Source: a virus. From it: a stretch of 49,049 nucleotides of DNA. The notes under the pieces are model-generated. The model did not search any database, was not told the origin of the DNA, and saw only the letters and a list, made by a program, of their open reading frames with translations. Position numbers and translations under genes: made by a program. The stretch is taken from the IMG/VR virus record IMGVR_UViG_3300024346_000110, positions 1-49,049 of that record. One strand, 5' to 3'. Shown one piece after another: positions 1,960 through 15,904 of this stretch (the first letter of the stretch is position 1; each line of letters opens with the position of its first letter).

Positions 1960-2256
1960 ATGGTGTGTTTCAATTTGAGATTGTATGATTATTTAGAACA
2001 GTATATCATGAACAAAGATACTGAACATGTGAACTGCTGCCCGGTTTGTTATGACAGGCATTTGAATGTTGATCACACAAGACCTGCAGTGCATGACATT
2101 GTTGATTGCTACAAAAGCAAATTGTTACAAGATGTTATAGCTGAATATCGTGTCAAGTACAATCAGGAACCGGATATCACCGAACATTTCATATATCAAG
2201 TGTGGAAACATGTGAGTGAAGAGATGATAGACTATCAGAAACTCAACAAGCGGTGA
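1960..2256 (+). CDS. Small Cys/His (zinc-finger-like) protein
   Basis: A 98-residue protein preceded by an exact TATAAATA octamer. It contains a CPVC knuckle at about residues 27-30 followed by His34 and His39, a plausible single zinc site. The rest is hydrophilic and probably helical, ending in a basic KLNKR. ATG 2008 (residue 17, MNKDTEHV) is an alternative start just before the Cys cluster. The 3' end overlaps the convergent Clp gene by 14 bases. Metal binding is inferred and no family was recognised. Confidence 0.6.
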   Translation: MVCFNLRLYDYLEQYIMNKDTEHVNCCPVCYDRHLNVDHTRPAVHDIVDCYKSKLLQDVIAEYRVKYNQEPDITEHFIYQVWKHVSEEMIDYQKLNKR

Positions 2257-4711
2257 ACAGCAGTTTTTCACCATCCACTGTTATTTTGATTTTGTTGATT
2301 GGTTCAGGTGAGTCTATCAACATCTCAGCCAATGGGGTCTCGATCTGATCGACAATCACACGTCTCAGTGGCCTGGCACCATATTCATGCTGCTTGTTGG
2401 CTCGTGCCACAAACTCACACACATCACCACTGTAGCTTATCATGCATCCATTGTTGCTTCTGGCGTTTGATCTCAACTCTCGAAGCAATAGTTTAGCGAC
2501 CTCTGTCAACTCATCATCATTCAATCGATCAAACACAATCAGATTGTCCAACCGGTTGATGAATTCTGGTGCGTACATCTTTCTGAGCTCGTCTATCACC
2601 GCGGTGTGAGTGTCATTTTGTTGTGTGAATCCAACAGTGTTGAGCTTATCAAACTTGTGGGCTCCGACGTTGCTGGTCATCACTATTATGGTGTTTTTAA
2701 AATTGACACTCAAGCCATCACTGTCTGTGAGACATCCATATTCCAACACTTGTAGAAACACTTGAAGTACATCTGGATGTGCTTTTTCAATCTCATCCAG
2801 AAGCAACACGCTGTATGGGTTGTGCCGGATGAATTCAGTCAGATCACCCCCTTCTCCTGAACCAACATAACCTGGCGGGCTGCCTATCAACTTGCTGACG
2901 CTGTGTTTCTCACTAAACTCACTCATGTCATATTGCTTGAAATTGCCGTCCGAAAACATCTCTGTGCCCAAGATTCGCGCCAGGTGTGTTTTTCCAACAC
3001 CAGTGGGTCCTAGAAATAACAATGAACATATAGGTCTGTCTGGATTTGTCAGACCAGCTCTGCTACGTTTGATCGCGGAACATATTGTGTCTATCGCAGC
3101 CTCTTGACCTATAACTTGCTTCTTCATATTACACGCAAGATCTCTCAAAACATCTGCTTCTGATCTGTTTATGTTGTTCACAGGCACGCCGGTTCGGTCA
3201 CTTACTAGTGATCGCACGTGATCTATATCAACACGCTCAGCTTTGCCTGGATTATCATATAAATCCTCACGCTCTTTTATTGCAGCATTCAATTCCTCGA
3301 TGTATTGTTGTTCTGTTTCCCTGTAACCTAATGCTGTGTCAAATTCATGTGACTCGACGGCTATATTTTTATGCTTGATCACTTGTTCGATGTTGGTGAG
3401 CAAGTCTCTCACACACCTTGGTTGCAACTTACGCACTTTAATGCGCGCTCCAACTTCATCCAGTATATCAATAGCCTTGTCCGGAAAGCGTTTGTCTGGT
3501 AAATATCTATTACACATATCAACTATCTCTCTCAACACACCTAAATTGTATTTGACATTATGATATGTTTCATATTTATGTTTGATACCTCTCAATATTT
3601 GCAACGTTTCATCTTGCGTGGGTTCATCTACATACACATTTTGAAATCTCCGATCAAGTGCACCGTCACTTTCAATAAACTCCTTATATTCCTGTAATGT
3701 TGTTGCTCCAATGCAGCTAATTTTGCCTCGAGCTAGTGCGGGTTTTAGTATGTTGCTTGCATCCATGCTTCCAGATGTAGAACCTGCTCCTACAAGCATG
3801 TGTAATTCATCTATAAACAAGATAATATCCGGTTGTTGTTGAGCATAGTTTATCACTTCCTTGAGTCTCTCTTCAAATTGACCTCTGTATATAGTACCTG
3901 CAACCAATTGAGCTAGATCCAAGGAGTATATTTGTTTGTGGAACATGTTGATAGGCACTTGTTGTGAGACAATCCGTTGAGCGAGCAGCTCTACTACAGC
4001 TGTTTTACCCACACCTGGCTCACCAACCAATACAGGATTGTTCTTGGTGCGGCGACTCAGTATCTCCAACATATATCTAACATCATCTTCTCTTCCGATC
4101 ACAGGATCCAGCTGGTCCTCGTATGCCATTCGCGTCAAGTTAGTAGCATATTTCTCTATCACACTCTCTTTGTGATCTGTGCTGGTCATCTCTTCATCAC
4201 CACCACCGGAAGAAGATGTCTTTTGCTTTGTTTTGCGCTTGCGTCTCTTGGGTAATGTTACTATTCTACTATAGATGTCTTCATACAGGACATCAACATC
4301 GATGTTTTTGAGTTTGAATAAATTGTTACCGGTTCCACTATCACTAACTAGGATGCTCAATAACATATGATCAACACTCACAAACGTTGAATCCATCTCA
4401 TGTGCGATGCTCGCAGCATAAGAGACCATGGTCAATACCCGACCACTCGGTTCAATTTCATCCATCTTAGGCTTTTTATCACCTTTGTATTTTTTAAGAT
4501 TTGAAATAACGAAGGATCTGAAGCTATCGATATCAATTGAGTGTATATCTCTCATGATCTGCACACTACTGGGCAGTTTATCATACTCGAATATGCTCAA
4601 CAATATATGCTCGGTCGTTATAAAATCGTGTAAATAATCACATGCGATTTGTTTCGCATGCGACATAATCTTTCTACCACTAGGTGACAATTCCGGTTGG
4701 TTGTTCATCAT
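2243..4711 (-). CDS. clpA: ClpA/ClpC-type AAA+ unfoldase (Clp protease ATP-binding subunit)
   Basis: An 822-residue protein of full family length. An N-terminal Clp_N double repeat (about residues 8-150) is followed by a basic, Gly/Ser linker (about 155-175). AAA domain 1 has Walker A GEPGVGKT (about 230-237) and Walker B ILFIDE (about 297-302). AAA domain 2 has Walker A GPTGVGKT (about 568-575), Walker B LLLDEIEKAH and the GYVG pore loop. A VGF tripeptide (about 693-695), where ClpA and ClpC carry the ClpP-docking loop, suggests it can bind a ClpP peptidase, whereas ClpB disaggregases lack that loop. No UVR motif is seen between the domains, so it is closer to ClpA in layout. The start is set at the ATGATG (4711 or 4708) just after TATAAATA; an in-frame ATG at 4756 lies upstream of that promoter. 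No clpP is in the window, so a host ClpP partner is inferred. Confidence 0.93.
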   Translation of the reverse strand: MMNNQPELSPSGRKIMSHAKQIACDYLHDFITTEHILLSIFEYDKLPSSVQIMRDIHSIDIDSFRSFVISNLKKYKGDKKPKMDEIEPSGRVLTMVSYAASIAHEMDSTFVSVDHMLLSILVSDSGTGNNLFKLKNIDVDVLYEDIYSRIVTLPKRRKRKTKQKTSSSGGGDEEMTSTDHKESVIEKYATNLTRMAYEDQLDPVIGREDDVRYMLEILSRRTKNNPVLVGEPGVGKTAVVELLAQRIVSQQVPINMFHKQIYSLDLAQLVAGTIYRGQFEERLKEVINYAQQQPDIILFIDELHMLVGAGSTSGSMDASNILKPALARGKISCIGATTLQEYKEFIESDGALDRRFQNVYVDEPTQDETLQILRGIKHKYETYHNVKYNLGVLREIVDMCNRYLPDKRFPDKAIDILDEVGARIKVRKLQPRCVRDLLTNIEQVIKHKNIAVESHEFDTALGYRETEQQYIEELNAAIKEREDLYDNPGKAERVDIDHVRSLVSDRTGVPVNNINRSEADVLRDLACNMKKQVIGQEAAIDTICSAIKRSRAGLTNPDRPICSLLFLGPTGVGKTHLARILGTEMFSDGNFKQYDMSEFSEKHSVSKLIGSPPGYVGSGEGGDLTEFIRHNPYSVLLLDEIEKAHPDVLQVFLQVLEYGCLTDSDGLSVNFKNTIIVMTSNVGAHKFDKLNTVGFTQQNDTHTAVIDELRKMYAPEFINRLDNLIVFDRLNDDELTEVAKLLLRELRSNARSNNGCMISYSGDVCEFVARANKQHEYGARPLRRVIVDQIETPLAEMLIDSPEPINKIKITVDGEKLLFTAC

Positions 4712-4715
4712 AAAA

Positions 4716-4723
4716 TATTTATA
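4716..4723 (-). promoter_or_regulatory. Late promoter octamer (TATAAATA)
   Basis: An exact TATAAATA on the minus strand, 4 or 7 bases before the tandem start codons of the Clp gene. It implies late expression and an almost leaderless mRNA. Confidence 0.65.
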
Positions 4724-4740
4724 TATGTTACACTTTAATG

Positions 4741-4769
4741 TTGATATATGCAACATTTTATCGTATAAT
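4741..4769 (+). promoter_or_regulatory. Sigma70-type promoter for the DNA-modification operon
   Basis: TTGATA (4741-4746), a 17-base spacer and TATAAT (4764-4769). This is five of six and six of six matches at ideal spacing. The expected start, about 7 bases after the -10 box, falls on the ATG at 4776, so the operon mRNA is probably leaderless. A host-type promoter suggests expression early in infection. Confidence 0.7.
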
Positions 4770-4775
4770 AATACT

Positions 4776-5609
4776 ATGTATATAGAAGTTTCACATGAAA
4801 GTCCAATCAGTATGTTGGAACACTCATTAACGTATAATGATTATGCTTACGCGTTGGTTCATTTATTTGAAACACATCCTAGATATTACAATTTTTTTAA
4901 GAACCTCACACAGAGCTCAGATGTACCGGTCTTATTAGATAATAGTATTTTTGAATTGAAAAAGGCCTTTGACCCTAAAAAGTATTGTGAGTGGATAAGC
5001 AAATTGAAACCAAATTATTATATTGTACCAGATGTTCTGGAGGATTATACAGGAACACGTGATGCGTGGAATGATTGGATGTTGAGGTATACTGATAATA
5101 GCCACACATTAGGTGAAGGTGCTCTCAAGATTGGTGTTGTGCAAGGTGTAAATTGGAACGACCTTGTAGAGTGTTATAAGTTTATGGCTGAACACGCTGA
5201 ATATGTTGCGATAAGTTTTGACTACTCATATTATCAACACACAGGATATAGTGCAAACTCATCATACCCACACAGGCTAGCCAAGATGAAATCCGGTAGA
5301 ATTAGATTCATACAACAGTTGATAGATGAAGGTATATGGTGCTGGGAAAAACCTCATCATTTACTGGGTTGTAGTTTAGCCAGTGAGTTCAGGTGGTATG
5401 TTGATAATAGTGTACGCAATATAAAGAGCTGTGACACAAGCAACCCTGTTGTTGCATCTATCAAAGGCTTGAGATACAATGATGACATGGGGTTAAATAT
5501 CAAGCCATCTACACTGTTAGCGGATTTGATTGATCACGAAATGACTGATGATCAGATTGATGATCTTGAATATAATACTAAAATGTTTAAAAAAATAATA
5601 AGAAGATAG
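4776..5609 (+). CDS. dpdA: TGT-like DNA guanine transglycosylase (DpdA family)
   Basis: A 277-residue protein with the signature pieces of the tRNA-guanine transglycosylase superfamily: a strand ending in LLDNSIFEL (about 53-61, matching the LDSGAFQ segment that carries a catalytic Asp), VPDVLED (about 84-90), and GVVQG (about 120-124, the G-x-V-Q-G substrate loop). A later LLGCSLASEF segment resembles other phage DpdA-type proteins. It is shorter than bacterial Tgt (about 375 aa) and lacks the C-terminal CxCxxC zinc site, as expected for an enzyme acting on DNA rather than tRNA. DpdA enzymes swap guanine in DNA for a 7-deazaguanine base. QueF and a formyltransferase in the same operon strongly support that reading. 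An upstream in-frame ATG at 4701 precedes the promoter and is rejected. A tRNA-directed role is the main alternative. Confidence 0.75.
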   Translation: MYIEVSHESPISMLEHSLTYNDYAYALVHLFETHPRYYNFFKNLTQSSDVPVLLDNSIFELKKAFDPKKYCEWISKLKPNYYIVPDVLEDYTGTRDAWNDWMLRYTDNSHTLGEGALKIGVVQGVNWNDLVECYKFMAEHAEYVAISFDYSYYQHTGYSANSSYPHRLAKMKSGRIRFIQQLIDEGIWCWEKPHHLLGCSLASEFRWYVDNSVRNIKSCDTSNPVVASIKGLRYNDDMGLNIKPSTLLADLIDHEMTDDQIDDLEYNTKMFKKIIRR

Positions 5610-5610
5610 A

Positions 5611-6165
5611 ATGTTAATAGAAAATAAGAAATGGGTAGCTATGTTTAGCCACACCGGTAATGAAATATACAACATATCAAGAATGATAGGCCGGTTTCCT
5701 GATCGTGTCATAACAAACAAGACACCTGGTGATAAAAGTATCAATAAGAAATTAATATCCAAAACAGATGTTGTTTACGTCAAAGATCGACCAGATGTAC
5801 AGGATTACAATAGAGTGTTGTGGAGTGATTGTGTTCTAACACTGCATGGGTGGATGAGAGTGTTACCTAAAACTGTATGTAAGGAGTATGAGATATACAA
5901 TTTACATCCAGGTTTAATAACAAAATATCCAGACTTGAAAGGTGCAGATCCACAACGACGTGTCTTTGAGTGTGATTACCCAGAGCAATATGAACATGTT
6001 GGGTGTGTTATACATCATGTGTCTCCGGAGGTTGATTCCGGTAAAGTTGTAATGGAGAGATCCACATCCAACACATTTGCAGGGTGTGGTGTATTGACGG
6101 AATATCTACACAAGATGGCTACAGACATGTGGGTAGATTTCATGATGTTAAGTGTATCGGATTAG
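5611..6165 (+). CDS. dpdN: PurN-like formyltransferase, candidate preQ1 N-formyltransferase (DpdN-like)
   Basis: A 184-residue protein of the N10-formyltetrahydrofolate-dependent formyltransferase fold. It has LHGWMRVLP (about 78-86, like the GFMRIL segment of PurN), the catalytic N-L-H-P motif (Asn97, His99), LITKYPDLKGADPQRRVF, and HHVSPEVDSG with Asp142 matching the third catalytic residue. All three catalytic positions of PurN are therefore kept, while the N-terminal nucleotide-binding part is shortened and diverged. It starts one base after the dpdA stop. Phage DNA carrying 7-(formylamino)methyl-7-deazaguanine has been reported, with a formyltransferase (DpdN) predicted to make it. This gene between dpdA and queF fits that role. 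A purine-synthesis GART is the alternative, less likely given the neighbours. Confidence 0.8.
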   Translation: MLIENKKWVAMFSHTGNEIYNISRMIGRFPDRVITNKTPGDKSINKKLISKTDVVYVKDRPDVQDYNRVLWSDCVLTLHGWMRVLPKTVCKEYEIYNLHPGLITKYPDLKGADPQRRVFECDYPEQYEHVGCVIHHVSPEVDSGKVVMERSTSNTFAGCGVLTEYLHKMATDMWVDFMMLSVSD

Positions 6166-6171
6166 AAACTA

Positions 6172-6714
6172 ATGCTTTGGAAGTTTAGAGTACTATTTAA
6201 TGTTCCGATTGAGATTGGATCAATTGTGAAATATAAAGATAGTAGATCAACAGATCGTAAGGGTGTTGGTGAGGTTTGTGGTATTATTGGAACTGGTGAA
6301 AATATAAAGTATGAGATATATGTATTGACCAAACGCCTACAACCCAGAATGACGAGTGACGACAAGTACATAACACGCAAGATTCACTCAAAATACTGCA
6401 AACATATCGACATCAGTAAAACGATAGTCAATAAAAATAACTTTGAACTGGGTGATTTTGTTTGTTATAAATTTTTAACAATCAAAAAATATGGCGTGAT
6501 AACTGGTTTCGTTCACCCAGACGGTCTAGACACAACATCATACTACTGTGGATACAACGGAACTGATTTGATACAGTGTGTGCAAATCGACAAGAACAAT
6601 TTAACACGTTGCAGAGACAATCAGCGTAACATTAAAAAATTCACCGCACATAAAAAGAGACTGAGGATATGTGAAGTGGATCTATGGAACGAGAAAGGTG
6701 TTAATATTAAATAG
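6172..6714 (+). CDS. Unknown protein of the modification operon with two SH3-like repeats
   Basis: A 180-residue basic protein starting 6 bases after the formyltransferase stop, with its own stop directly abutting the next ATG. Two segments look like copies of one small beta module: IGSIVKYKD...GEVCGIIGTG (about 15-45) and LGDFVCYKF...YGVITGF (about 90-115). Each has a G-x-x-V-x-Y strand and a G-x-I-x-G turn, as in SH3-like or KOW-type barrels. Many Lys/Arg and Cys residues suggest nucleic acid or metal contact. No family was recognised. Its place among dpdA, dpdN and queF suggests an accessory role in DNA modification, such as targeting, but this is guilt by association. Confidence 0.7.
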   Translation: MLWKFRVLFNVPIEIGSIVKYKDSRSTDRKGVGEVCGIIGTGENIKYEIYVLTKRLQPRMTSDDKYITRKIHSKYCKHIDISKTIVNKNNFELGDFVCYKFLTIKKYGVITGFVHPDGLDTTSYYCGYNGTDLIQCVQIDKNNLTRCRDNQRNIKKFTAHKKRLRICEVDLWNEKGVNIK

Positions 6715-6924
6715 ATGGCTCCGTGGCGATTATTAAATTCCAAGGGAAAATTTTTAGTTGTGGCATGCTGTTTAAATGTTTACGTGGCTGGTTTGGTTGG
6801 TTTTGGTGGATCGTGGTTTGCAGTATGTTCGATTTGTTTAGCAGCGCTTTGTGGTATGATGACATTCAATAGCAATTATCAAATAACAACAGCAGAAGAT
6901 ATTAATGAAGAGAGAAAAAAATAA
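6715..6924 (+). CDS. Small two-TM membrane protein
   Basis: A 69-residue protein whose ATG directly follows the upstream TAG. A basic N-terminus (APWRLLNSKGK) precedes two hydrophobic helices (FLVVACCLNVYVAGLVGF, then SWFAVCSICLAALCGMM) and a polar tail ending in ERKK. It overlaps the next gene by 20 bases in another frame. The topology suggests a hairpin in the inner membrane with both ends in the cytoplasm. The function is unknown, and no lysis or transport motif was seen. Confidence 0.6.
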   Translation: MAPWRLLNSKGKFLVVACCLNVYVAGLVGFGGSWFAVCSICLAALCGMMTFNSNYQITTAEDINEERKK

Positions 6925-7267
6925 CAGACAGTTTGATTCAGGAGCACAAAGAGATACCGGTGATGGTAAGTTACGCATGAGCTTGTTACCACAACAAGAA
7001 ATGAAACGTGTGTTGAAGAGATATCTAGATGGTGCAGAAAAATATGGTGAGAACAACTGGATGAAGGGCATGCCGTTGAGTGTGTATTTTGACTGCGCGC
7101 ATCGGCATCTTGAGGCTTGGTGGCGGGGTGAAGATTCAGAAGACCATGCTGCAGCTGTGGTGTGGAACATATTATGTGCTATGCATACAGAAACACGAGC
7201 TTCAGAATCAGGTACATCTTCAGAAGAATATCAACTGGATGACCGTACTAAATATCCAAAAGATTAG
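6905..7267 (+). CDS. dATP/dGTP diphosphohydrolase-like protein (DUF5664 family)
   Basis: A 120-residue protein carrying the hallmark pattern of this small phage family: DTGDGKLRMSLLPQQEMKRV, then LDGAEKYGENNWMKG, then YFDCAHRHLEAWWRGED and a final helix HAAAVVWNILCAM. The pattern K-Y-G-x-x-N-W and R-H-L-x-A-W-W-x-G-E-D matches proteins annotated as dATP/dGTP diphosphohydrolases (all-alpha, MazG-like) that hydrolyse dNTPs to dNMPs. The Glu/Asp residues would bind Mg2+. The protein is cytoplasmic. In this operon it may tune the deoxyguanosine nucleotide pool, which is inference. The family is also common in phages without modified DNA. Confidence 0.75.
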   Translation: MKREKNNRQFDSGAQRDTGDGKLRMSLLPQQEMKRVLKRYLDGAEKYGENNWMKGMPLSVYFDCAHRHLEAWWRGEDSEDHAAAVVWNILCAMHTETRASESGTSSEEYQLDDRTKYPKD

Positions 7268-7296
7268 TGGATAATATCTTCTAGATAGGATATAAT
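7268..7296 (+). promoter_or_regulatory. Sigma70-like internal promoter
   Basis: TGGATA (7268-7273), a 17-base spacer and TATAAT (7291-7296), followed by ATG at 7302. It is a second host-type promoter inside the operon, placed in its only sizeable gene gap, and again would give a nearly leaderless message for the kinase-queF pair. Confidence 0.5.
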
Positions 7297-7301
7297 GTGG
7301 T

Positions 7302-7895
7302 ATGTTAATTAGTTTCACAGGTGCACAATGCACAGGTAAGACAACACTATTAAAGGAGTGTATGTCTAAGTTTCAAGAAGGAGAACATTTCTTTCAATGG
7401 AATTTTGTTAATGAGGTCACAAGAAAGGTCAAACGTAGTGGGTTTTCGATTAATGAACAAGGTGATAATACAACACAACTACACATATTAAGCGAACATT
7501 TAATCAACCACACACAATCTGTAGGTAACACGATGTTGGATAGATGTATATTAGATGGTTATGTATATTCATGTTATCTGGCATCCAGAGGTATAGTAGA
7601 CGAGTGGGTTTGTGAGTATGCAGGCAATTTGATGAACGAGTTGGTCGGGAGATTGGATCATATCTTTTACACACAACCAGAAGATATACAACTTGTTGAT
7701 GACGGAGAGAGGAGCCTAGATCATGATTTTAGGCAAGGCATAATTGATAGATATGAGGAACTATTCGATAAAAAATATTTTTGGTACAACAAGATAGTCA
7801 GATTATATGGCGATGAACAAGAGCGTATGCTAACAATTTTACAAACAATAAATGAACATGACAACAGCAACATTAGACAACTCCAGAATATCTAA
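7302..7895 (+). CDS. P-loop kinase/ATPase (NadR-like, AAA_28 type)
   Basis: A 197-residue protein beginning with a textbook Walker A (FTGAQCTGKTTLL, residues 4-16). NEVTRKV is followed later by TMLDRCILDGYVYS, the D-R lid or Walker B strand of nucleoside and ribosylnicotinamide kinases. This pattern matches small AAA_28/NadR-kinase-like proteins widespread in T4-like phages. The expected activity is ATP-dependent phosphorylation of a nucleoside or nucleotide in the cytoplasm, but the substrate cannot be read from the sequence. It overlaps queF by 44 bases and may share the promoter at 7268-7296. A kinase for a modified deoxynucleoside is possible but unsupported. Confidence 0.8.
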   Translation: MLISFTGAQCTGKTTLLKECMSKFQEGEHFFQWNFVNEVTRKVKRSGFSINEQGDNTTQLHILSEHLINHTQSVGNTMLDRCILDGYVYSCYLASRGIVDEWVCEYAGNLMNELVGRLDHIFYTQPEDIQLVDDGERSLDHDFRQGIIDRYEELFDKKYFWYNKIVRLYGDEQERMLTILQTINEHDNSNIRQLQNI

Positions 7896-8796
7896 ACATC
7901 TAGGACAGGTATCACAGTACAAAGATCAATACGACTCATCGTTACTTGTTAGTGAACCCAGACAGAACAACAGAACGCATCTTGATATCAGTGATGATAA
8001 TTTACCATTTGTAGGGTATGATACATGGAATGCATATGAAGTAAGTGCACTCACTAACAATGGATTGCCAGTTGCAGGTGTTGCAAAGATTGTTTATCCA
8101 TGCAATAACAAGTATATCGTTGAGAGCAAAAGTATAAAACTATATTTCAACTCATTTAATATGTATAAGTGTGGTGACCAGCCGGTAGATGTGTTGGATT
8201 TTATTGACAAAAAGGCATCAGAAGACTTATCTAAACTCCTAGGAGCAATTGTTCACGTGCACACTCATCCAGCGAGCTTCAGAGCTAAGGGAGATCAAGT
8301 TTTGGATCCATTTCAATATACCACTTTAGAGGACACATTCTCTCAAGAGGAACTAGGTAAGATGCATTTGGATACATATAGTGAGACTCCAGAATTACTC
8401 TCATTAGAAGAGTCTAGTAAAAAAGGTGTGATGTCAGAGGAGGTTCGATGGCACAGTAGTTTGCTTAAAAGCAATTGTAGGGTAACTAGCCAACCAGATT
8501 GGGGTGATGTTTATATAATGTATAAAGCTCAAACTCATGTATGTCCGGAGAGCTTGTTAGCTTACATCATATCATTCAGAGACGAGTGTCATTTCCATGA
8601 AGAAATTTGTGAGACTATATATAAACGATTACATGACGCTCTATCACCAGAAGAGTTAGTTGTTACATGTTTATATGCAAGACGTGGTGGTATTGACATC
8701 AATCCTGTACGTGCTTCGAATACTGCCTTGATCGCACGTGAGTGTCAAGATCTCGTGGACCCTTTTGTAATGCATGTGAAGACAGCAAAGCAATAA
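7852..8796 (+). CDS. queF: QueF, NADPH-dependent 7-cyano-7-deazaguanine (preQ0) reductase
   Basis: A 314-residue protein of the bimodular E. coli-type QueF family, somewhat longer than the usual 280 aa because of an acidic insert at about 145-190. The first half has LGQVSQYKDQYDSSLL, VGYDTWNAYEVS and the diagnostic ESKSIKLY motif (about 91-98, NADPH binding). The second half has LLKSNCRVTSQPDWG with the nucleophilic Cys (about 209) and Asp (about 216), FHEEICE (His/Glu about 249-250, substrate binding) and RRGGIDINP. QueF reduces preQ0 to preQ1, the last step before base exchange in the queuosine route. With dpdA and dpdN it points to preQ1-type DNA modification. ATG 7858 is an alternative start. 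A terminator facing the opposite way follows. Confidence 0.95.
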   Translation: MNMTTATLDNSRISKHLGQVSQYKDQYDSSLLVSEPRQNNRTHLDISDDNLPFVGYDTWNAYEVSALTNNGLPVAGVAKIVYPCNNKYIVESKSIKLYFNSFNMYKCGDQPVDVLDFIDKKASEDLSKLLGAIVHVHTHPASFRAKGDQVLDPFQYTTLEDTFSQEELGKMHLDTYSETPELLSLEESSKKGVMSEEVRWHSSLLKSNCRVTSQPDWGDVYIMYKAQTHVCPESLLAYIISFRDECHFHEEICETIYKRLHDALSPEELVVTCLYARRGGIDINPVRASNTALIARECQDLVDPFVMHVKTAKQ

Positions 8797-8800
8797 GCAC

Positions 8801-8840
8801 AAAAAAAACGACTCACCAGCATCACCTGTGAGAGTCGAAA
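8801..8840 (-). terminator. Rho-independent terminator of the virion transcript
   Basis: On the minus strand, CGACTCTCAC pairs with GTGAGTCG (a short bulge in one arm), followed by a run of eight T. It lies about 60 bases past the gp23 stop and between the convergent queF and capsid genes. Confidence 0.8.
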
Positions 8841-8900
8841 AATTGTTTTTATCACCGGATGTATCATTTCACCGGTTGTTGAGTTGCATCTAACTAATGA

Positions 8901-10334
8901 TCAGAAGTACACCGACTGAGTGCCGGGTGTGAACGATTCACCTAAGTCTGAGATTACGATAACGTGGTAGTAAAGATCTGCACCAAAGATGTTGTCTACA
9001 ACACCATAACGTGTTAATAGTCCAACTCGTGGAGCAAAATCATTAGGACCAACCGTGCGCTGTACCATCACTGGGATGTACGGACAATAAATGATACCTG
9101 TGTCGTAAAACTCAGGTCCTTTATAACCCAATAGAATGTACTCGAGGCGAGTTTCGCCTCGTTTACCATCTTCATATTGTGCTTCAGTCCGGGTGTCGCG
9201 ATATACATTAAACCTTCCACCAAGATTCCCAACACGAGCAATTCCTACTGGTTGGGTGTTTACATTGCCTTGAACCTGCATCCACTGAAATTCAGGGAGC
9301 ATTTCAAGAATCGCACAAACACGAGGTGTAGCAACTAAAAAGTTAGCAGCACCACGACGATTGCGGATAGCGATACGATTCGCTTCAACAATGATCTTAG
9401 CATAAAGGTCACGATTACGTTCGGCCATCCAACGTCCGTCTGCGCTTGCGGGGCTCCAGGTGCTAACACCTTTTCCAGCTCCAGCATTTGCAGCTACTTG
9501 AACCATCCTCATGAGCATTTCCCGGTCGATTTCGGCCTGAATTTCATACGACATAGCGTTTGTCAATTCAGTATCGATATCAATACCGTTCATGTTCTTA
9601 AGGTCTTGTTCAAGTTCAACACTCCAACGAGCAGCAAGTCTACGAGTTCCAGCTTCAACAGCAGTCTTTTCAAATGAAACGACCATCTGTGGAATATTAC
9701 CGGTTAGCTCATAGTCTTTGAGCAACTTCGCAACTCCAGCATCTTCATCGATAAAATCGATTCCTGCTCCACCGCTCAATGCGGCAGATGATGCTCCGGT
9801 GAAACGTGTATCAAGAGTTTGATACCCTGCTTCAGTCCCGTCATTTGTGCGAGGTTGTCCATCGTTACCGACTACAGAACTTCCGTACGTGTGTCCGTCG
9901 ATTCCTGTCGATCCGAGACTTTCAGTCTCGTACTTGTAACGCATTGCAAAAGCGAGTCCAACTGGACCGCTCATGGGTTGAACGCCTACGATCTCATTAG
10001 TGATAAGTTCAGGGAATGTACGACGAATCATTGGGATCAAGATCTTGGGCAGACGGCTATCTCCTGTGGCGTAATGATCTCCTGTTGGAGAAGATTGTCC
10101 ACCGAGCTGTCCGAAAGAACTGCCTCCACCAAGAGCACCACCAGCATACGAATTTTCTCTTAAGCACCAATTCTCTTGATTTTCCAAGAGAATCGCGGTG
10201 TTTAGGCGAGAGTGATCGTCTGTGATAGCCTTGACGTTGTCAGAACTGTAGTCCAAAACTGGAGCCCATTTTTCAAGAAGCACTCCTGCGCGTTCTTGAT
10301 CGATATATGATTGTGCGGGTTTTACCTGTGACAT
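8901..10334 (-). CDS. gp23: Major capsid protein (T4 gp23-like)
   Basis: A 477-residue protein aligning along its length with T4 gp23. Landmarks are RRTFPELITNEIVGVQPMSGPVG, SVELEQDLKNMNGIDIDTEL, EIQAEIDREM, FNVYRDT, ILLGYKGPEFYDTGIIYCPY and VGLLTRYGVVDNIFGADLYYH. It forms the hexamers of the head. The N-terminal approximately 60 residues are a helical propeptide ending WCLRE-NSYAGG. The LxE at 58-60 matches the gp21 cleavage consensus, so mature capsid protein probably begins at Asn61. A good ribosome site (AAGGAAA) and a TATAATAA box lie upstream, consistent with high expression. It is the last gene of the long minus-strand block and is followed by a terminator. It is slightly shorter than T4 gp23 (521 aa). 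Confidence 0.95.
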   Translation of the reverse strand: MSQVKPAQSYIDQERAGVLLEKWAPVLDYSSDNVKAITDDHSRLNTAILLENQENWCLRENSYAGGALGGGSSFGQLGGQSSPTGDHYATGDSRLPKILIPMIRRTFPELITNEIVGVQPMSGPVGLAFAMRYKYETESLGSTGIDGHTYGSSVVGNDGQPRTNDGTEAGYQTLDTRFTGASSAALSGGAGIDFIDEDAGVAKLLKDYELTGNIPQMVVSFEKTAVEAGTRRLAARWSVELEQDLKNMNGIDIDTELTNAMSYEIQAEIDREMLMRMVQVAANAGAGKGVSTWSPASADGRWMAERNRDLYAKIIVEANRIAIRNRRGAANFLVATPRVCAILEMLPEFQWMQVQGNVNTQPVGIARVGNLGGRFNVYRDTRTEAQYEDGKRGETRLEYILLGYKGPEFYDTGIIYCPYIPVMVQRTVGPNDFAPRVGLLTRYGVVDNIFGADLYYHVIVISDLGESFTPGTQSVYF

Positions 10335-10354
10335 ATTTCTAATGTTTCCTTTTC

Positions 10355-10362
10355 TTATTATA
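10355..10362 (-). promoter_or_regulatory. Promoter box upstream of the capsid gene (TATAATAA)
   Basis: TATAATAA on the minus strand lies 20 bases before ATG 10334, with AAGGAAA between. It could be a variant of the late octamer or a sigma70 -10 box. Unlike most promoters here it leaves room for a ribosome-binding site, as expected for the most abundant protein. Confidence 0.45.
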
Positions 10363-10388
10363 ACTCAGGCTTATTGCCTCAACGTTGA

Positions 10389-11318
10389 TTACCACCGGGT
10401 GAGTTCACCCATGTAGTTATCAAAAAGTCCTCTATCCTGCATACTATCAGGATTTGTTTGTTCAATTTGCTGTTCGACGCTCTCACTAACAACATGTTTC
10501 TTGCCCTGTACAGGACGGTCAGCAATCTTTTTAGATTGTGTTGCTTGTTGCTTTAGTTCGGTCATTTTATCAGCTTCTGTCTTTTCGAACATATCTAATG
10601 TGTATTGATAGTTCTCTTTTATAAATTTTACACTCTTGCCATCTAATACTTTATATATGTGTCTCTTTTTGGATGAAGGTAAACCTTCTGTGAGTCTCTC
10701 TAGTGCTAGATTTGCTTCTTTTTTGTTGATCGACTCTCTTAGTACTCGATTCTCCTCTGTCAACTTACTATTTACAGCGGATGCTTCGTCTATCTGTCTT
10801 TTTCCATCAATGACAGCATCACGTACATGATCGCTTGCTAGCGCACTGTCAATACTTAAATTTTTTCTCAATCCCTCTAAAATTGTGACGGCATGTCTGT
10901 TTTTAACTGCTTCTCGTATGTCTTTGGTTGGTACAGCCTTTTCTACATATAAGTCGAGATAGTTACTAATATTATCTATCAAGCTCTCCTTAAACATGTT
11001 TGCATCACCATTCATGTCATTCTTGAATTTCTTAACAATTTGTATCAATTTGTCAGAATGTATTCTATCGAGTGATTCTACTACCTTATGTAATTTAGAG
11101 GTATGGTCGGAATCGATTGCTTCTAACAATCTCTCCAATTTGATAGCATGAGCTTCATCTTGCTCAACTAGCGCTTTCTCTACGCGCAGTGCTGCTAGTT
11201 CATCTGCTTTGTTTGATACAGATTCATTAAAAGCGGTTTCAATTTCTTGTAGCACTTCCTCAGATAATACATCAGATGCAACTTTTCTTAATTGTTCGGT
11301 TATTGTGTTATCACTCAT
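10389..11318 (-). CDS. gp22: Prohead core scaffolding protein (gp22-like)
   Basis: A 309-residue, very charged and almost entirely helical protein with long heptad stretches (LVEQDEAHAIKLERLLEAID, ESINKKEANLALERLTEGLP). It lacks membrane segments and has few aromatic residues, as expected for a scaffold. Its place between the gp21 protease and gp23 is exactly that of T4 gene 22. The scaffold forms the inner core of the prohead and is later cut by gp21. Several L/I-x-E sites that gp21 could cut are present, for example LLEAID. It starts in an ATGA overlap with a small core peptide gene and has its own late octamer 10 bases upstream. T4 gp22 is 269 aa. Confidence 0.85.
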   Translation of the reverse strand: MSDNTITEQLRKVASDVLSEEVLQEIETAFNESVSNKADELAALRVEKALVEQDEAHAIKLERLLEAIDSDHTSKLHKVVESLDRIHSDKLIQIVKKFKNDMNGDANMFKESLIDNISNYLDLYVEKAVPTKDIREAVKNRHAVTILEGLRKNLSIDSALASDHVRDAVIDGKRQIDEASAVNSKLTEENRVLRESINKKEANLALERLTEGLPSSKKRHIYKVLDGKSVKFIKENYQYTLDMFEKTEADKMTELKQQATQSKKIADRPVQGKKHVVSESVEQQIEQTNPDSMQDRGLFDNYMGELTRW

Positions 11319-11476
11319 CGTTTAAAAATATTTATGTTCTTGTACTTACTTATTTTATTAATCAGCTTATTTTCTACAGTTTTTTGTAAACTCTTACTGG
11401 CTGCTGCGTAATTTTTTTCACTCAAACTCTTAATAAAATTGGTGATTTCTGCTCTATTTTTGTCTTCGCTGTTCAT
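11315..11476 (-). CDS. Small prohead-core-like peptide between gp21 and gp22
   Basis: A 53-residue frame starting MNSEDKNRAEITNFIKSL and ending KYKNINIFKR, flanked by ATGA overlaps with gp21 (upstream) and gp22 (downstream), so it is almost certainly translated. It is basic and helical, with ITNFIKSLSEKNYAAASKSL and VENKLINKI segments. T4 has two small core proteins (gp67, gp68) next to gp21 and gp22. Small genes of this form lie in the same place in other T4-like phages. Sequence similarity to either cannot be claimed, so the assignment rests on position and character. The gp22 late octamer lies inside its 3' end. Confidence 0.75.
   Translation of the reverse strand: MNSEDKNRAEITNFIKSLSEKNYAAASKSLQKTVENKLINKISKYKNINIFKR
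11329..11336 (-). promoter_or_regulatory. Late promoter octamer (CATAAATA)
   Basis: CATAAATA on the minus strand, 10 bases upstream of the gp22-like start and inside the small core gene. It could boost scaffold expression relative to the protease. Confidence 0.55.
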
Positions 11477-12153
11477 TTAATTTTTATTGCCTCTATAAAT
11501 TCGAGTATGTTTTGCTTGATATATGTTTCAACGTCTTTACGTGGTAGGTCGGAGAGTCCTAGCTCAAGATTATGATAAGCTTCCTCATATTCACCGAATG
11601 TATTCAATACATATTGCTTACTCTCTAAAATGCCATTAACAAATGCTTCACCGAAACTCGGATCTGCTACACAGTCTATCGCTACCAGTCTCATATTCTT
11701 AACATGACTAACATCAGAACCACCTTCATTAACAAGTTTTCCTAAAGATCTAGTGCTCATCCCAACACTACAACCATCTCGGATTAACGATCTGACAATC
11801 ATACCGGTTGGTGTTGATAATACCTTTGATTTACCAATATAGACGTTAGGATTACCTTTAGAGGGCTTGAGTTCAGTCACAAGATGGCATGCTCGCTCGA
11901 GATCTACATCTGCACTTGTGGGGTGATTTAACTCTCCTAATGCTCTTTTCGTGTTTATCATTTGCTCATTGTACCTCTTAACTTCAATCAACATTTCCTT
12001 CTCACAGTATATACGTTGATTTTTGTTTTTCTCTTTTGCCATCGCATAAGGTCCTTTTATATATACATCTGGATCTGTATTATTATTTTTCTCTTCTATA
12101 ATATATTCAAATTCAGAAGGATCGGTTGTTTCAACTAATAGTTTCGCGTGCAT
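11473..12153 (-). CDS. gp21: Prohead core maturation protease (T4 gp21-like)
   Basis: A 226-residue serine protease of the T4 prohead protease family (MEROPS S77). The catalytic His lies in GELNHPTS (His77) and the nucleophilic Ser in SVGMSTRSLG (Ser133), with the typical CHLVTELK strand between them and AIDCVADPSFGEAF after. T4 gp21 has the same elements at His85 and Ser140 in 212 residues. The enzyme sits in the scaffold core, cuts core proteins and capsid protein at L/I-x-E sites and destroys itself during maturation. It is followed by overlapping core-peptide and gp22 genes and preceded by a late octamer. Confidence 0.92.
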   Translation of the reverse strand: MHAKLLVETTDPSEFEYIIEEKNNNTDPDVYIKGPYAMAKEKNKNQRIYCEKEMLIEVKRYNEQMINTKRALGELNHPTSADVDLERACHLVTELKPSKGNPNVYIGKSKVLSTPTGMIVRSLIRDGCSVGMSTRSLGKLVNEGGSDVSHVKNMRLVAIDCVADPSFGEAFVNGILESKQYVLNTFGEYEEAYHNLELGLSDLPRKDVETYIKQNILEFIEAIKIK

Positions 12154-12163
12154 GATTATTAAG

Positions 12164-12171
12164 TATTTATG
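12164..12171 (-). promoter_or_regulatory. Late promoter octamer (CATAAATA)
   Basis: CATAAATA on the minus strand, 10 bases before the gp21 ATG. It lies in the 37-base gap between the gp4-like gene and gp21. Confidence 0.6.
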
Positions 12172-12190
12172 CTTCTCGGGAGAATTTCTA

Positions 12191-12661
12191 CTACCTAGTA
12201 AATAAGTTAAATTGTTTTTCTGTAACTAACTGAAATATATAACCATTCTTATCAGCCCAATCCTTGGCAGCGATCCATTTTGCTTGATTTGTCTGCCACG
12301 TATAATTTTCATGTATGATTGTACTTCTCTTTTTATTTCCATGATTTACAGGTGGTATTGTTTGTTTGTATGGCTTTATCTCGATTAGATATTTAACTAG
12401 TTTATCTTTACCTTCACGTATGAATACCGTGTTATCTACAATATATTTATGTAGTTTACCATCCACTGGAGATATATACGGTATGTAAACATTCTCACTC
12501 GTCCACTGCTCCACATGTGGATTTCGATCACACCACCGGAAGAACTTCAACTCCCAACTACTTAAATATTTTGGATTCTTACTACCCTTATACTTGTGTC
12601 TGTTCACGGGTTTATATACACCCTGTCTGTACTCCTTGTATTTCTTATACGGCTTCTTCAC
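12191..12661 (-). CDS. gp4: Head completion protein (T4 gp4-like)
   Basis: A 156-residue basic protein that matches T4 gp4. Landmarks are YLSSWELKFFRWCDRNPHVEQW, then SENVYIPYISPVDGKLHKYIVDN and LIEIKPYKQ. In T4 the equivalents are SSWECKFMYFCD, IPYIKPTDGKIHRY and LEIKPKAQ. The E...D...EIK arrangement is that of a restriction-endonuclease-like (TnsA-type) fold, and the protein is thought to trim or protect packaged DNA ends as heads are completed. The start is GTG, overlapping the preceding stop as GTGA. It follows the SNase-like gene, so two nuclease-like proteins are coupled in the neck operon. Confidence 0.88.
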   Translation of the reverse strand: MKKPYKKYKEYRQGVYKPVNRHKYKGSKNPKYLSSWELKFFRWCDRNPHVEQWTSENVYIPYISPVDGKLHKYIVDNTVFIREGKDKLVKYLIEIKPYKQTIPPVNHGNKKRSTIIHENYTWQTNQAKWIAAKDWADKNGYIFQLVTEKQFNLFTR

Positions 12662-13002
12662 CTCATGTATACTACAGCATGTCCTTCTTCAACTAACAGA
12701 TCATTTATACTTGTATCAAAGTCTCTCTCAAACAGAACACCGATACATCTTCCGAATTTTCCTTGGTCCACTGATTTTAAATACAATTCATTATTTTGAG
12801 ATTTAACAATCTCTATTAATCTCTCTTTAGCTGCAAGGCCTTTTATTTTCTCTTGTTTGTCTCTAGTACGTGTTTCTGGTGTATTTATACCATACAATCT
12901 TATTATCTTTTTGAGCTTGATGTTAAATCCTAGGTCAATTTCAGCATCAATAGTATCACCATCAATTACACGTATGACTTTAATTGTATAAATGTAATCC
13001 AT
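12658..13002 (-). CDS. Staphylococcal nuclease-like (SNase) protein
   Basis: A 114-residue minimal SNase domain (thermonuclease family). It has VIRVIDGDTIDAEI with the Ca2+-binding Asp (about 16), IIRLYGINTPET with Arg35 and Glu43, and GKFGRCIGVLF with the second catalytic Arg (about 85). These match Asp21, Arg35, Glu43 and Arg87 of the staphylococcal enzyme, so activity against DNA or RNA is expected. No signal peptide is visible, so it acts in the cytoplasm or in the virion. Start and stop overlap the neck gene (TGATG) and the gp4 gene (GTGA), so it is translated with head-completion proteins. A role in DNA-end trimming or host-DNA breakdown is possible. Confidence 0.88.
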   Translation of the reverse strand: MDYIYTIKVIRVIDGDTIDAEIDLGFNIKLKKIIRLYGINTPETRTRDKQEKIKGLAAKERLIEIVKSQNNELYLKSVDQGKFGRCIGVLFERDFDTSINDLLVEEGHAVVYMR

Positions 13003-13994
13003 CAGCCTACGAAAAAGAGTGGTGGTTGACCATCACCAAAACCTGGTACACCTTCATATAATTTTGTCTCAAGCTTTTCTTTCTCTTGATTACCCTCAGA
13101 TAACAACTCACTATAATTCGGCACACCACCGCCAAATAAATTTGTACCACTATATTTTCCACGAATTCGACCAATTACAATTTTTGTCAATGCGAGAGTG
13201 TATTGATATACCCACTGTTCACTTACTAACTGATGCACAGGTCTCTCGACATATGCTCCAACAATACCATAAAAGTGCGTCCTCCTAGCACCACCACCTG
13301 GCTCAGGTGTTAGAAACATTGTTTGTGTGCGATCATCAAATCTATAGTAGTAGTCTTGTGATAGCAATTTTCTTCGTGTGTCAAGCCAATTTTTCATCGT
13401 AAACCAACTTATCAAGTCAAAACCATATTTACCTAAGGCATAACTAAAATATGTTTGTTGTGCTAATGTTTGCTCTAATGTGAATAATGTATTTATACCA
13501 CTACTACTACCCTCTTCAAACGCGAAAAGGTCTATAACCTTTCTGTAATTGTCAGTCAAGTAATCATAACCTCTCATCGATGGATTTCCATCTTTGTATG
13601 ATACTGCAAAGTTCTTAGGGCTTTCACCTATTGTACTTTTTCCTACCTCATATAAATCTGTATCTAATGTAGCCACATCATCACTTGGTGTTGATGTTTT
13701 GAGTTGCTCTGTTGCAGTAAACAAAACATCCATTCGAAGACCTTTACCAGGTTCATACAACCGAGAGTTGAATGTCAAGAGCTCTTCTGTGTAACCAGCG
13801 AACTTGCTGAACATTTCGATCGCGATGCTGATATTTTCAAATACTTGATTTTGGTGTGCTTCTATGTTTATCTGCGGATAGCCGAGTGTGTATGCTATAC
13901 GAGTCGCGAGCTTCTCGTAGGAGTCTACTATAGGATTTAAATTGGTACTATAAAATGCGCTCAGTGGTTTTGTTGGTATAGATTCTTGACTCAT
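13002..13994 (-). CDS. gp13: Neck protein (T4 gp13-like)
   Basis: A 330-residue protein. Residues about 25-80 match the start of T4 gp13: an amphipathic helix (YEKLATRIAYTLGYPQINIEA), H-x-N-Q-V-F-E-N-I-S-I-A-I-E-M-F, then a beta region. gp13 (309 aa in T4) joins gp14 to seal the head and receive the tail. The C-terminal half has aromatic segments (FGFDLISWF-like, FYGIVGAYVERPVHQLV) consistent with neck proteins. It overlaps the 637 aa fibre gene upstream (ATGA) and the SNase gene downstream (TGATG). gp14 was not recognised in the window. Similarity is moderate, so another neck protein cannot be excluded. Confidence 0.75.
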   Translation of the reverse strand: MSQESIPTKPLSAFYSTNLNPIVDSYEKLATRIAYTLGYPQINIEAHQNQVFENISIAIEMFSKFAGYTEELLTFNSRLYEPGKGLRMDVLFTATEQLKTSTPSDDVATLDTDLYEVGKSTIGESPKNFAVSYKDGNPSMRGYDYLTDNYRKVIDLFAFEEGSSSGINTLFTLEQTLAQQTYFSYALGKYGFDLISWFTMKNWLDTRRKLLSQDYYYRFDDRTQTMFLTPEPGGGARRTHFYGIVGAYVERPVHQLVSEQWVYQYTLALTKIVIGRIRGKYSGTNLFGGGVPNYSELLSEGNQEKEKLETKLYEGVPGFGDGQPPLFFVG

Positions 13995-15904
13995 GTTTCA
14001 TCTGTTACTCCTACAATTATACCATTCACAATGTGTAATATGTTACCACCAACATTAACATCCTTGGTTATACCATTCACAATGTCTCCGGCTGTGTTCT
14101 TTGTCGCGTATGAACTAGCATTCATTACACCATCAACCATAAAGGTACCAATCGCAGCTAGATTATCGCCTCTCACCCAAAAAGTGTCTCTTAAATCTAT
14201 ACCACCAGACAATAACCTGGCGGTTGTGTCCAAGTCACCCGTCATTGTGTCACCGGTGACGTTAATATATGTATCATCAAGTTGTTCGATGGTTTGCTTC
14301 TCTGCAACTGTCATCCACTTGTTGTCATTATCAACATCAGATATGTTGTCTGACACTAACTCAACGTGTCCAGACTGATCATTCACACTCGTCACGTATG
14401 CATCCGGCTTGGCAAGCTTGCTGTAACCAGAATATGCTTTTGTTGATGAGTTGTATGTACCTGCAGGTGTATCAGTTTTAGCAATTAAATTGTCGTATGT
14501 ACTTGTCACTATAACAATGTCTCCACGCTGTATACCTTCAGCTGGGTTCAGGGTCGCGACTTCTTCTGGATTTTGTACTGTGTATGTTTGTGTGATACTC
14601 AGCTCCGGAATTTGGCCTTCCATCAACACACCGTTACTATCCAGCACAGCCCAATTGGAACTAACAGCTTTGACATGTGTGTATGTGTCTTCCCAATTAC
14701 CACTGTTACTCACCAGGGCTGACGTTATGTCTGACACGTCTGTCACATACCCAGCTGCACCATGATCACCCCAGTTGTGTGCCGCGGTCCAATTGTCAAT
14801 GTTTGTTTGTGTTATGTTGTTAGCAACATGGGCTGTAAAAATTGGATCTGTCTCGATTGTTAAATATCCTGCTGCACCATGATCACCCCAGCTGTGTGCT
14901 GTGGTCCAATTGTCAATGTTTGTTTGTGTTATGTTGTTAGCAACATGGGCTGTAAAAATTGGATCTGTCTCGTTGTAGTTGGTTATATATCCAGCTTGTG
15001 AATGGTCACCCCAGCTGTGTGCCGTGGCCCAACTTCCACTGTTGTTCTCTACTACTGTCTCAATATCTGTAAAATCATCTCTCAACCGATTGAACTCAAT
15101 ATCATTCAATAATGAACTGAACATCAACCCACCTCCTCCTGGTTTGATTGTCACATACTCTCCTGGATTACCACTATCATAACTAACTGGTGTGTCATGT
15201 AGCTCAACAAACGTGTCAACATGTTGACCCTCTCCATGTAAATCTCTAGCCGCATACCAAGTGTTGTCCGCAGTGTTATACTTCAACACGTCATTGTTTT
15301 CAACTGATGTTATGTCAACATCCAACAGATCAGTCAATTTGTTTGTGTCTGTGTTTGTATCGATATCAATTATCCAATCTGCACTGTTGGTGTTAACCGT
15401 GGATCGTACGTCGGACAACTCGGTCAATATTGTGTCAACATTGGTTTGATTGGCCCATTCCGCACTATTTGTATCAACAGTGGTGCGTACATCAGACAAC
15501 TCGGTCAATATTGTGTCAACATTGGTATGGTTGGCCCATTCAGCGCTGTTCGTTGCCACCACAGATGTTGTCGCATTCCATGTTGAACTGACGTTTTCTA
15601 TCAATGTCACCCGGTCAGAGACACCTTGTATCTCATCACTCTCCTCCCAGGTTGAACGTAGAGTGTTGACATCATTATAAACACTGTCTAGCTTGGCTCC
15701 GTCAGCGGATATATCACGTCCGTTGATAGTTGTATCTGTAGTTACTACACCTTGTACACTCAACATACCAGTTATGGTTGTGTCTGTTATGTGTCGAGTG
15801 TTGTGACAACTGTCAATCAATCGTGCGAAATCATCACCAGTGGGACGATCTCCATCTTCAAATCGACCTTTTAAATATTCTAAATTTTTATGTTCTGTTG
15901 TCAT
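13991..15904 (-). CDS. Tail-fibre-like structural protein (637 aa)
   Basis: The N-terminus (LKGRFEDGDRPTGDDFARLIDS) is of the type seen in phage fibre genes that attach to the virion. Residues about 50-230 hold repeats such as TNSAEWANQTNVDTILTELSD. Residues about 290-400 hold three copies of WGDHxxAGY(I/L)T, a motif common in trimeric fibre shafts. The C-terminus ends GNILHIVNGIIVGVTDET, like the final strands of other fibre proteins in this window. The whole is low in Cys and rich in Thr, Asn, Asp and Val, as expected for beta-structured fibres. It has a late octamer 6 bases upstream and overlaps the gp13 gene. The receptor is unknown. Confidence 0.8.
   Translation of the reverse strand: MTTEHKNLEYLKGRFEDGDRPTGDDFARLIDSCHNTRHITDTTITGMLSVQGVVTTDTTINGRDISADGAKLDSVYNDVNTLRSTWEESDEIQGVSDRVTLIENVSSTWNATTSVVATNSAEWANHTNVDTILTELSDVRTTVDTNSAEWANQTNVDTILTELSDVRSTVNTNSADWIIDIDTNTDTNKLTDLLDVDITSVENNDVLKYNTADNTWYAARDLHGEGQHVDTFVELHDTPVSYDSGNPGEYVTIKPGGGGLMFSSLLNDIEFNRLRDDFTDIETVVENNSGSWATAHSWGDHSQAGYITNYNETDPIFTAHVANNITQTNIDNWTTAHSWGDHGAAGYLTIETDPIFTAHVANNITQTNIDNWTAAHNWGDHGAAGYVTDVSDITSALVSNSGNWEDTYTHVKAVSSNWAVLDSNGVLMEGQIPELSITQTYTVQNPEEVATLNPAEGIQRGDIVIVTSTYDNLIAKTDTPAGTYNSSTKAYSGYSKLAKPDAYVTSVNDQSGHVELVSDNISDVDNDNKWMTVAEKQTIEQLDDTYINVTGDTMTGDLDTTARLLSGGIDLRDTFWVRGDNLAAIGTFMVDGVMNASSYATKNTAGDIVNGITKDVNVGGNILHIVNGIIVGVTDET

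Follow-up and report, generated by a model that had tools for sequence, protein, structure and literature searches.

An operon of a T4-like phage links a new subfamily of TGT-fold transglycosylases to a kinase and a pyrophosphohydrolase in a predicted pathway to 7-deazaguanine genomes

The viral record IMGVR_UViG_3300024346_000110 of IMG/VR, analyzed here in its entirety (a linear fragment of 49,049 bases and undefined completeness; the window), carries seven closely packed plus-strand genes at positions 4776 to 8796. An earlier note on this DNA had singled out three of them, encoding a DpdA-like transglycosylase, a PurN-like formyltransferase, and QueF, and had predicted modified guanine in the virion DNA. 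These three do lie together in one plus-strand operon, but four further genes within the same coordinates had been overlooked, among them those for a PF18909 enzyme and a kinase, the steadiest partner of the transglycosylase. We conclude that the operon is a real and widespread 7-deazaguanine genome modification cassette. This type of modification is itself known; what is new here is that transglycosylases of a distinct subfamily are combined with a kinase dedicated to them and a deoxynucleoside triphosphate (dNTP) pyrophosphohydrolase. We observed the gene content, the predicted folds, and the conservation of both catalytic motifs and linkage, and we judge it very likely that the virion DNA carries a 7-deazaguanine modification. 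With a likelihood a little short of even, the transglycosylases form a family with the fold of tRNA-guanine transglycosylases (TGT) that exchanges guanine on free deoxynucleotides and, together with the kinase and a dGTP pyrophosphohydrolase, makes up a modified-dGTP pathway to 7-deazaguanine genomes.

The transglycosylase gene (4776 to 5609, plus strand) encodes 277 amino acids from its ATG. The protein had no match in Pfam, NCBIfam, or PDB sequences, and its only PHROG match was phrog_19058, whose function is unannotated. A tblastn search matched 21 phage records. Identity was 41% to a protein of Flavobacterium phage immuto annotated as DpdA by its depositors and 39 to 40% to Campylobacter Firehammervirus proteins annotated as "hypothetical protein"; distant forms were present in Campylobacter CC_R7, Rhizobium RHph_I1_18, and Weizmannia Youna2. 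For an AlphaFold model built from 48 relatives (predicted local distance difference test [pLDDT] = 91; predicted template modeling score [pTM] = 0.89), the best PDB structures were all tRNA-guanine transglycosylases (Foldseek E = 1e-8; VIA Z = 17.9, 234 residues). By this model the protein is a TIM barrel of the TGT type and a member of the TGT superfamily. The order of TGT motifs is retained, with LLDNSIFE in the window for LTDSGGFQ in TGT (Asp102), IVPDVLED (Asp156), GVVQG for GIQQG, KPHHLLG for KPRYLMG, and SCDTSNP for MFDCVLP (Asp280). Candidate catalytic residues, assigned from sequence and profile alignment, are D55 (Asp102 of TGT), D86 (Asp156), Q123-G124, H195-L-L-G, and D220 (the nucleophile Asp280). 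D55, D86, and D220 were invariant across 25 of 25 diverse relatives, the most distant members included. Alignment of the family profile with two true TGTs paired the last three motifs, placing D220 with FDCVLP (pairwise E = 0.0055, weak alone).

The label DpdA-like in the earlier note holds for the fold, but the protein is not a member of the DpdA (9g) or DpdA2 (nt-1) sequence families. The DpdA of phage 9g (317 amino acids) and the DpdA2 of Vibrio phage nt-1 (464 amino acids) share with the window TGT-type motifs (D-S/N and D280-like) and a preQ0 pathway, but neither shows hidden Markov model (HMM) or profile similarity to the window protein. The 9g family gave no HMM match at E = 100, and hhalign left the motifs unaligned; the nt-1 family gave no HMM match at E = 10 and an hhalign probability of 1.2. 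By sequence, then, the transglycosylase is a subfamily separate from both. It also looks like a phage family, because a pattern-based scan of 84,980 bacterial and archaeal genomes found a relative in only three contigs of metagenome-assembled genomes (L114, L115, and L116). All three may be phage contigs placed in the wrong bin. In the genome that shares a bin with L115, a TGT gene (L121) contains 13 in-frame TGA codons, which hints at a recoded bacterium.

To describe the neighborhood of the gene, we used two IMG/VR scans in which loci were selected by transglycosylase similarity and not by neighborhood. These scans yielded some 160 loci that fall into two clades, one resembling the window (51 to 96% identity) and one resembling immuto (65 to 100%), and at least 100 IMG/VR contigs held the same cassette. 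In the window-like clade, the transglycosylase is followed by PurN (often), PF18909 or a 115-amino-acid DUF1599-like protein, the kinase, QueF, and usually gp23; the pyrophosphohydrolase slot is sometimes joined by a GMP reductase and sometimes empty. The order in the immuto-like clade is QueD, QueE, a phosphoribosyltransferase, FolE, a PRA-PH hydrolase, the transglycosylase, PurN, the kinase, QueF, and PolA. After removal of loci more than 90% identical and with 3.5 kb downstream required, 89 nonredundant loci remained, in which the kinase was present in 86, QueF in 83, and PurN in 74 (in two of the three kinase exceptions, the kinase lies farther downstream). PF18909, the DUF1599-like protein, or PRA-PH was found in 71 of the 89; these three have no detectable relation to one another, and two of them are annotated pyrophosphohydrolases. 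The association of transglycosylase, PurN-like enzyme, and QueF is not due to chance, because dozens of distinct contigs share it. Loci within one clade share ancestry, so the 89 are not independent events; the stronger argument is the persistence of the transglycosylase-kinase pair at 26 to 41% identity across CP220, CC_R7, immuto, and the window, in varied surroundings. Flavobacterium phage vB_FspM_immuto (NC_055915) has the same genes in the same order as the window (DpdA-like protein, 41% identity; PurN, 41%; kinase, 33%; QueF, 45%), but differs in having PRA-PH in place of PF18909 and FolE, QueD, QueE, and PolA adjacent.

Several features of these loci were observed in passing. A GMP reductase (NF003966, ~1e-101), which perhaps recycles guanine freed by exchange, is encoded within the cassette of L060 (9390 to 10346) and ten other loci (11 in total), with PurN on one side and the DUF1599-like gene on the other. 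The 115-amino-acid protein that replaces PF18909 (L060, 10355 to 10699; a cluster of 31 loci) weakly resembles PF07659 (nucleotide modification associated domain 1); a relation between it and PF18909 was unsupported (hhalign probability, 0.5). Searches of the PRA-PH and PF18909 profiles against PDB gave no useful match. The phosphoribosyltransferase gene between QueE and FolE (L011, 6840 to 7235) is kept in nearly all immuto-like loci.

Two of the overlooked genes encode enzymes of nucleotide metabolism. The protein at 6905 to 7267 (plus strand, 120 amino acids) matched PF18909 (DUF5664) at 2.6e-22, with 79 bits against a cutoff of 27, and is assigned as a dATP/dGTP pyrophosphohydrolase. In Z-genome phages, this family hydrolyzes dATP and dGTP to the monophosphates (PMC12884076, 2026). 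The Z-genome systems (PurZ/MazZ/DatZ and DmtZ/DutZ/DUF5664) thus share this enzyme with the window, and their combination of pool clearing with base exchange by DmtZ, which swaps bases on dAMP, has a logic parallel to that proposed here (PMC12884076, PMC8342488). They differ in that adenine is replaced by 2-aminoadenine, in using PurZ or NDT-family enzymes rather than a TGT fold, and in relying on host kinases. The adjacent gene (7302 to 7895, plus strand, 197 amino acids) encodes a predicted P-loop nucleoside or nucleotide kinase (phrog_2107, 8e-25) with Walker A and DR motifs. Its structure model (pLDDT = 91.5) matched NadR kinase (Z = 17.9), thymidylate kinase (TMK; Z = 16.8), and deoxycytidine kinase (Z = 16.5); on this model the fold is one that acts on free nucleosides or nucleotides, the classes being close to tied. 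Together, the kinase and the PF18909 enzyme may indicate base exchange on free nucleotides.

The kinase tracks the transglycosylase across phages. In the phage collection, each of the 19 Flavobacterium and Campylobacter records with the transglycosylase also had a relative of the kinase; distant Streptomyces phage kinases matched as well, without a transglycosylase nearby. The kinase profile found nothing in 9g, nt-1, pf16, or Vibrio phage 2.275.O. Because CP220 and CC_R7 have a second kinase, which adjoins dUTPase, the copy linked to dpdA looks like a dedicated one. A second kinase paralogue of ~250 amino acids was also seen in 9 of 11 window-like contigs; in the two contigs detailed (L209, 5833 to 6579; L210, 5050 to 5820), it lies near QueE (L209, 6618 to 7367) in the preQ0 region. 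In Weizmannia phage Youna2 (L096, 5387 to 6705), the gene of an unannotated P-loop kinase-like protein of another kind runs into the start of the distant dpdA-like gene, which in turn overlaps PolA directly downstream; no relatives of the Youna2 dpdA-like protein were found in IMG/VR. Rhizobium phage RHph_I1_18 (L095, 6004 to 7788) joins a distant dpdA-like domain and DUF3310 in one fusion, and a dUTPase gene comes next; the dUTPase family includes DutZ of Z-phages, a dATP/dGTP hydrolase.

The Campylobacter Firehammerviruses CP220 and CPt10 connect the pair to a phage genome of known chemistry. In both, 100% of dG is replaced by 2'-deoxy-7-amido-7-deazaguanosine (dADG) (PMC8306585). A 2019 survey placed CP220-type Campylobacter phages in a group without DpdA and raised for them the possibility of a route through modified dGTP or of a deoxyribosyltransferase that had escaped detection (PMC6884629). 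We found that CP220 gp056 (NC_027997, 54675 to 55451; L012, 9004 to 9780), annotated as a "hypothetical protein," is related to the transglycosylase and that its gene adjoins a thymidylate-kinase-like gene. As in the window, the transglycosylase (39 to 40% identical in CP220/CPt10) and a related kinase are neighbors, but neither PurN nor QueF lies beside them in CP220, and the product is dADG, not a preQ1 derivative. The inserting enzyme that went unrecognized in the 2019 survey is thus likely this 40%-identical protein, with the kinase as its partner.

The last gene of the operon (7852 to 8796, plus strand) encodes a bimodular QueF, the NADPH-dependent preQ0 reductase. Both Pfam domains were detected (QueF_N, 3.8e-31; QueF, 1.5e-22), and TIGR03138 matched at 2.6e-73, yet with 247 bits against a curated cutoff of 293. 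Aligned to PDB 3bp1 (8e-43) through ESKSIKLYFNSFN and SNCRVTSQPDWG, the protein keeps the NADPH motif of the ESKS(h)K type (ESKSIKLYFNSFN), the catalytic Cys in SNCRVTSQPDW, and the Asp aligned to 3bp1. What the earlier note called a clear QueF has both halves and the catalytic residues of one, and to read it from these features as a preQ1-producing nitrile reductase is sound; QueF and QueF-L are hard to separate from sequence alone (PMC6884629). Many phage QueF genes (the KVP40 group, pf16, and immuto) carry a GTP cyclohydrolase annotation.

The PurN-like protein (5611 to 6165, plus strand) matched PF00551 above the cutoff (1.1e-9) and TIGR00639 at 1.4e-9, and its PDB matches were glycinamide ribonucleotide (GAR) transformylases. 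N97, H99, and D142 occupy the positions of the catalytic Asn-His-Asp and are kept in 98% of 60 relatives. Because its TIGR00639 score of 37.8 is far under the PurN cutoff of 150, the enzyme probably formylates a substrate other than GAR. Formylated preQ1 (fdPreQ1) in phage DNA was reportedly described in a 2023 paper under which the name DpdN also arose, and we take the PurN-like enzyme to be a candidate DpdN. The formyltransferase in the operon makes fdPreQ1 a better prediction than dPreQ1, the latter suiting loci without PurN. The earlier note had placed preQ0 synthesis outside the operon. The 15 records considered (14 relatives plus the window) included 9 with FolE, 9 with QueD, and 8 with QueC, and QueE was present in most of the longer records; FolE, QueD, and QueC were not found in the window. 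In the relatives, the preQ0 pathway is phage encoded, tens of kilobases from the cassette, and therefore preQ0 is phage made.

We propose the following pathway. Phage FolE, QueD, QueE, and QueC, encoded elsewhere in the genome, would supply preQ0, which QueF would reduce to preQ1 and the PurN-like enzyme would then formylate. The PF18909 enzyme would convert dGTP to dGMP, both clearing the normal precursor and providing a substrate; on this free dGMP, or on deoxyguanosine, the small TGT-fold transglycosylase would exchange guanine for the modified base. The TMK- or deoxynucleoside kinase (dNK)-type kinase would phosphorylate the modified deoxynucleotide, and a host kinase and the phage polymerase would finish the process. 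The end product would be a genome with a 7-deazaguanine derived from preQ1, most probably N-formylated, in place of guanine. What we infer is that the DNA is modified at all, which base it carries, at which step formylation falls, and that free nucleotides, not finished DNA, are the site of exchange.

The principal rival explanation, which we consider plausible at somewhat less than an even chance, is that the transglycosylase acts as a classical DpdA, exchanging guanine in finished DNA for preQ1 or fpreQ1, with the kinase and pyrophosphohydrolase only tuning the dNTP pool. The characterized DpdA and TGT enzymes all act on polymers (PMC6884629; PMC12707154). Small size and acidic charge are no argument against exchange in DNA: the 9g DpdA, which modifies DNA, has 317 amino acids and an isoelectric point (pI) of 5.64, compared with a family median of 5.5, so that charge is uninformative as a sign of DNA binding and size only a weak sign of a small substrate. 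However, exchange in DNA leaves unexplained why one kinase family tracks the window subfamily across phage lineages, and not DpdA or DpdA2, and why a dGTP pyrophosphohydrolase recurs; nor does it easily explain the 100% replacement in CP220.

Several points weigh against exchange on free nucleotides. The two chief ones are that no TGT-superfamily enzyme is known to act on them and that a 2019 study by Crippen reportedly did not detect dADG phosphates in infected cells. The kinase could serve general dNTP supply, its adjacency being guilt by association only. A recognized pyrophosphohydrolase within 4 kb was missing in 18 of the 89 loci, and pf16, of the DpdA2 type, also has PRA-PH near its cluster, so the pyrophosphohydrolase is not exclusive. 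PurN does not speak for a nucleotide substrate, because the GAR-phosphate end of PurN is not covered by the PDB alignment. In addition, phage 9g DpdA modifies DNA in Escherichia coli without such a kinase (PMC6884629). On balance, our analysis leans slightly toward the nucleotide-level route over exchange in DNA, at a likelihood barely below even. If it is correct, the same transglycosylase-kinase pair would account for the complete dG replacement in Campylobacter Firehammerviruses, and a nucleotide-level TGT would offer a practical route to 7-deaza-dG precursors. The family is abundant in environmental T4-like phages, and whether exchange occurs in DNA or on free dNMP is now directly testable.

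It is improbable that the genes instead serve host tRNA queuosine or folate/purine metabolism, with QueF raising preQ1, PurN contributing to purine synthesis, and the transglycosylase acting on tRNA. Bacterial QueF and PurN do serve in this way, and cyanophages encode PurN. However, the transglycosylase had no match to PF01702, the tRNA-type Tgt family (none was found in seven phage contigs), and the cysteines of the C-terminal zinc site of TGT (CxCxxC...H), present in real TGTs, are absent from the alignment of its relatives. The protein is therefore not a tRNA-acting Tgt, in agreement with the earlier note; the low PurN score and the CP220 relative, in a phage with fully dADG DNA, likewise speak against a host role. 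Least probable is a role for the TGT-fold protein in taking out guanine or modified bases, as a hydrolase or a sensor. Such a role might be read from the divergence around its motifs (DNS for DSGG, CDTSNP for FDCVLP) and from DmtZ of Z-phages also being a hydrolase (PMC12884076), but the protein occurs together with QueF, PurN, and the whole preQ0 pathway, which points to base insertion.

The two remaining genes of the operon, both on the plus strand, encode a 180-amino-acid protein (6172 to 6714) with no Pfam or PHROG match, found only in the window's own clade (11 to 12 loci), and a hydrophobic, membrane-like protein of 69 amino acids (6715 to 6924; 14 loci). The intergenic distances, in operon order, are 1, 6, 0, −20, 34, and −44 bp. 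Within the window, no preQ1 riboswitch or other Rfam family and no tRNA genes were found, and a DNA search of positions 3000 to 15000 against phage records gave no match. The T4-type late promoter TATAAATA occurred 6 times against 2.6 expected, which we regard as unconvincing. An 837-amino-acid ClpA/ClpB-like AAA+ protein (2243 to 4756) is encoded divergently from the operon and adjoins it, and was seen in 18 loci. The host of the operon is a T4-like, marine-type phage: the minus strand encodes a gp23 major capsid protein (PF07068, 3.7e-94) and tail genes, and the capsid protein is at best ~35% identical to isolates, among which T4-like cyanophages rank first. The minus strand also contains a 4,086-amino-acid open reading frame at 26670 to 38930.

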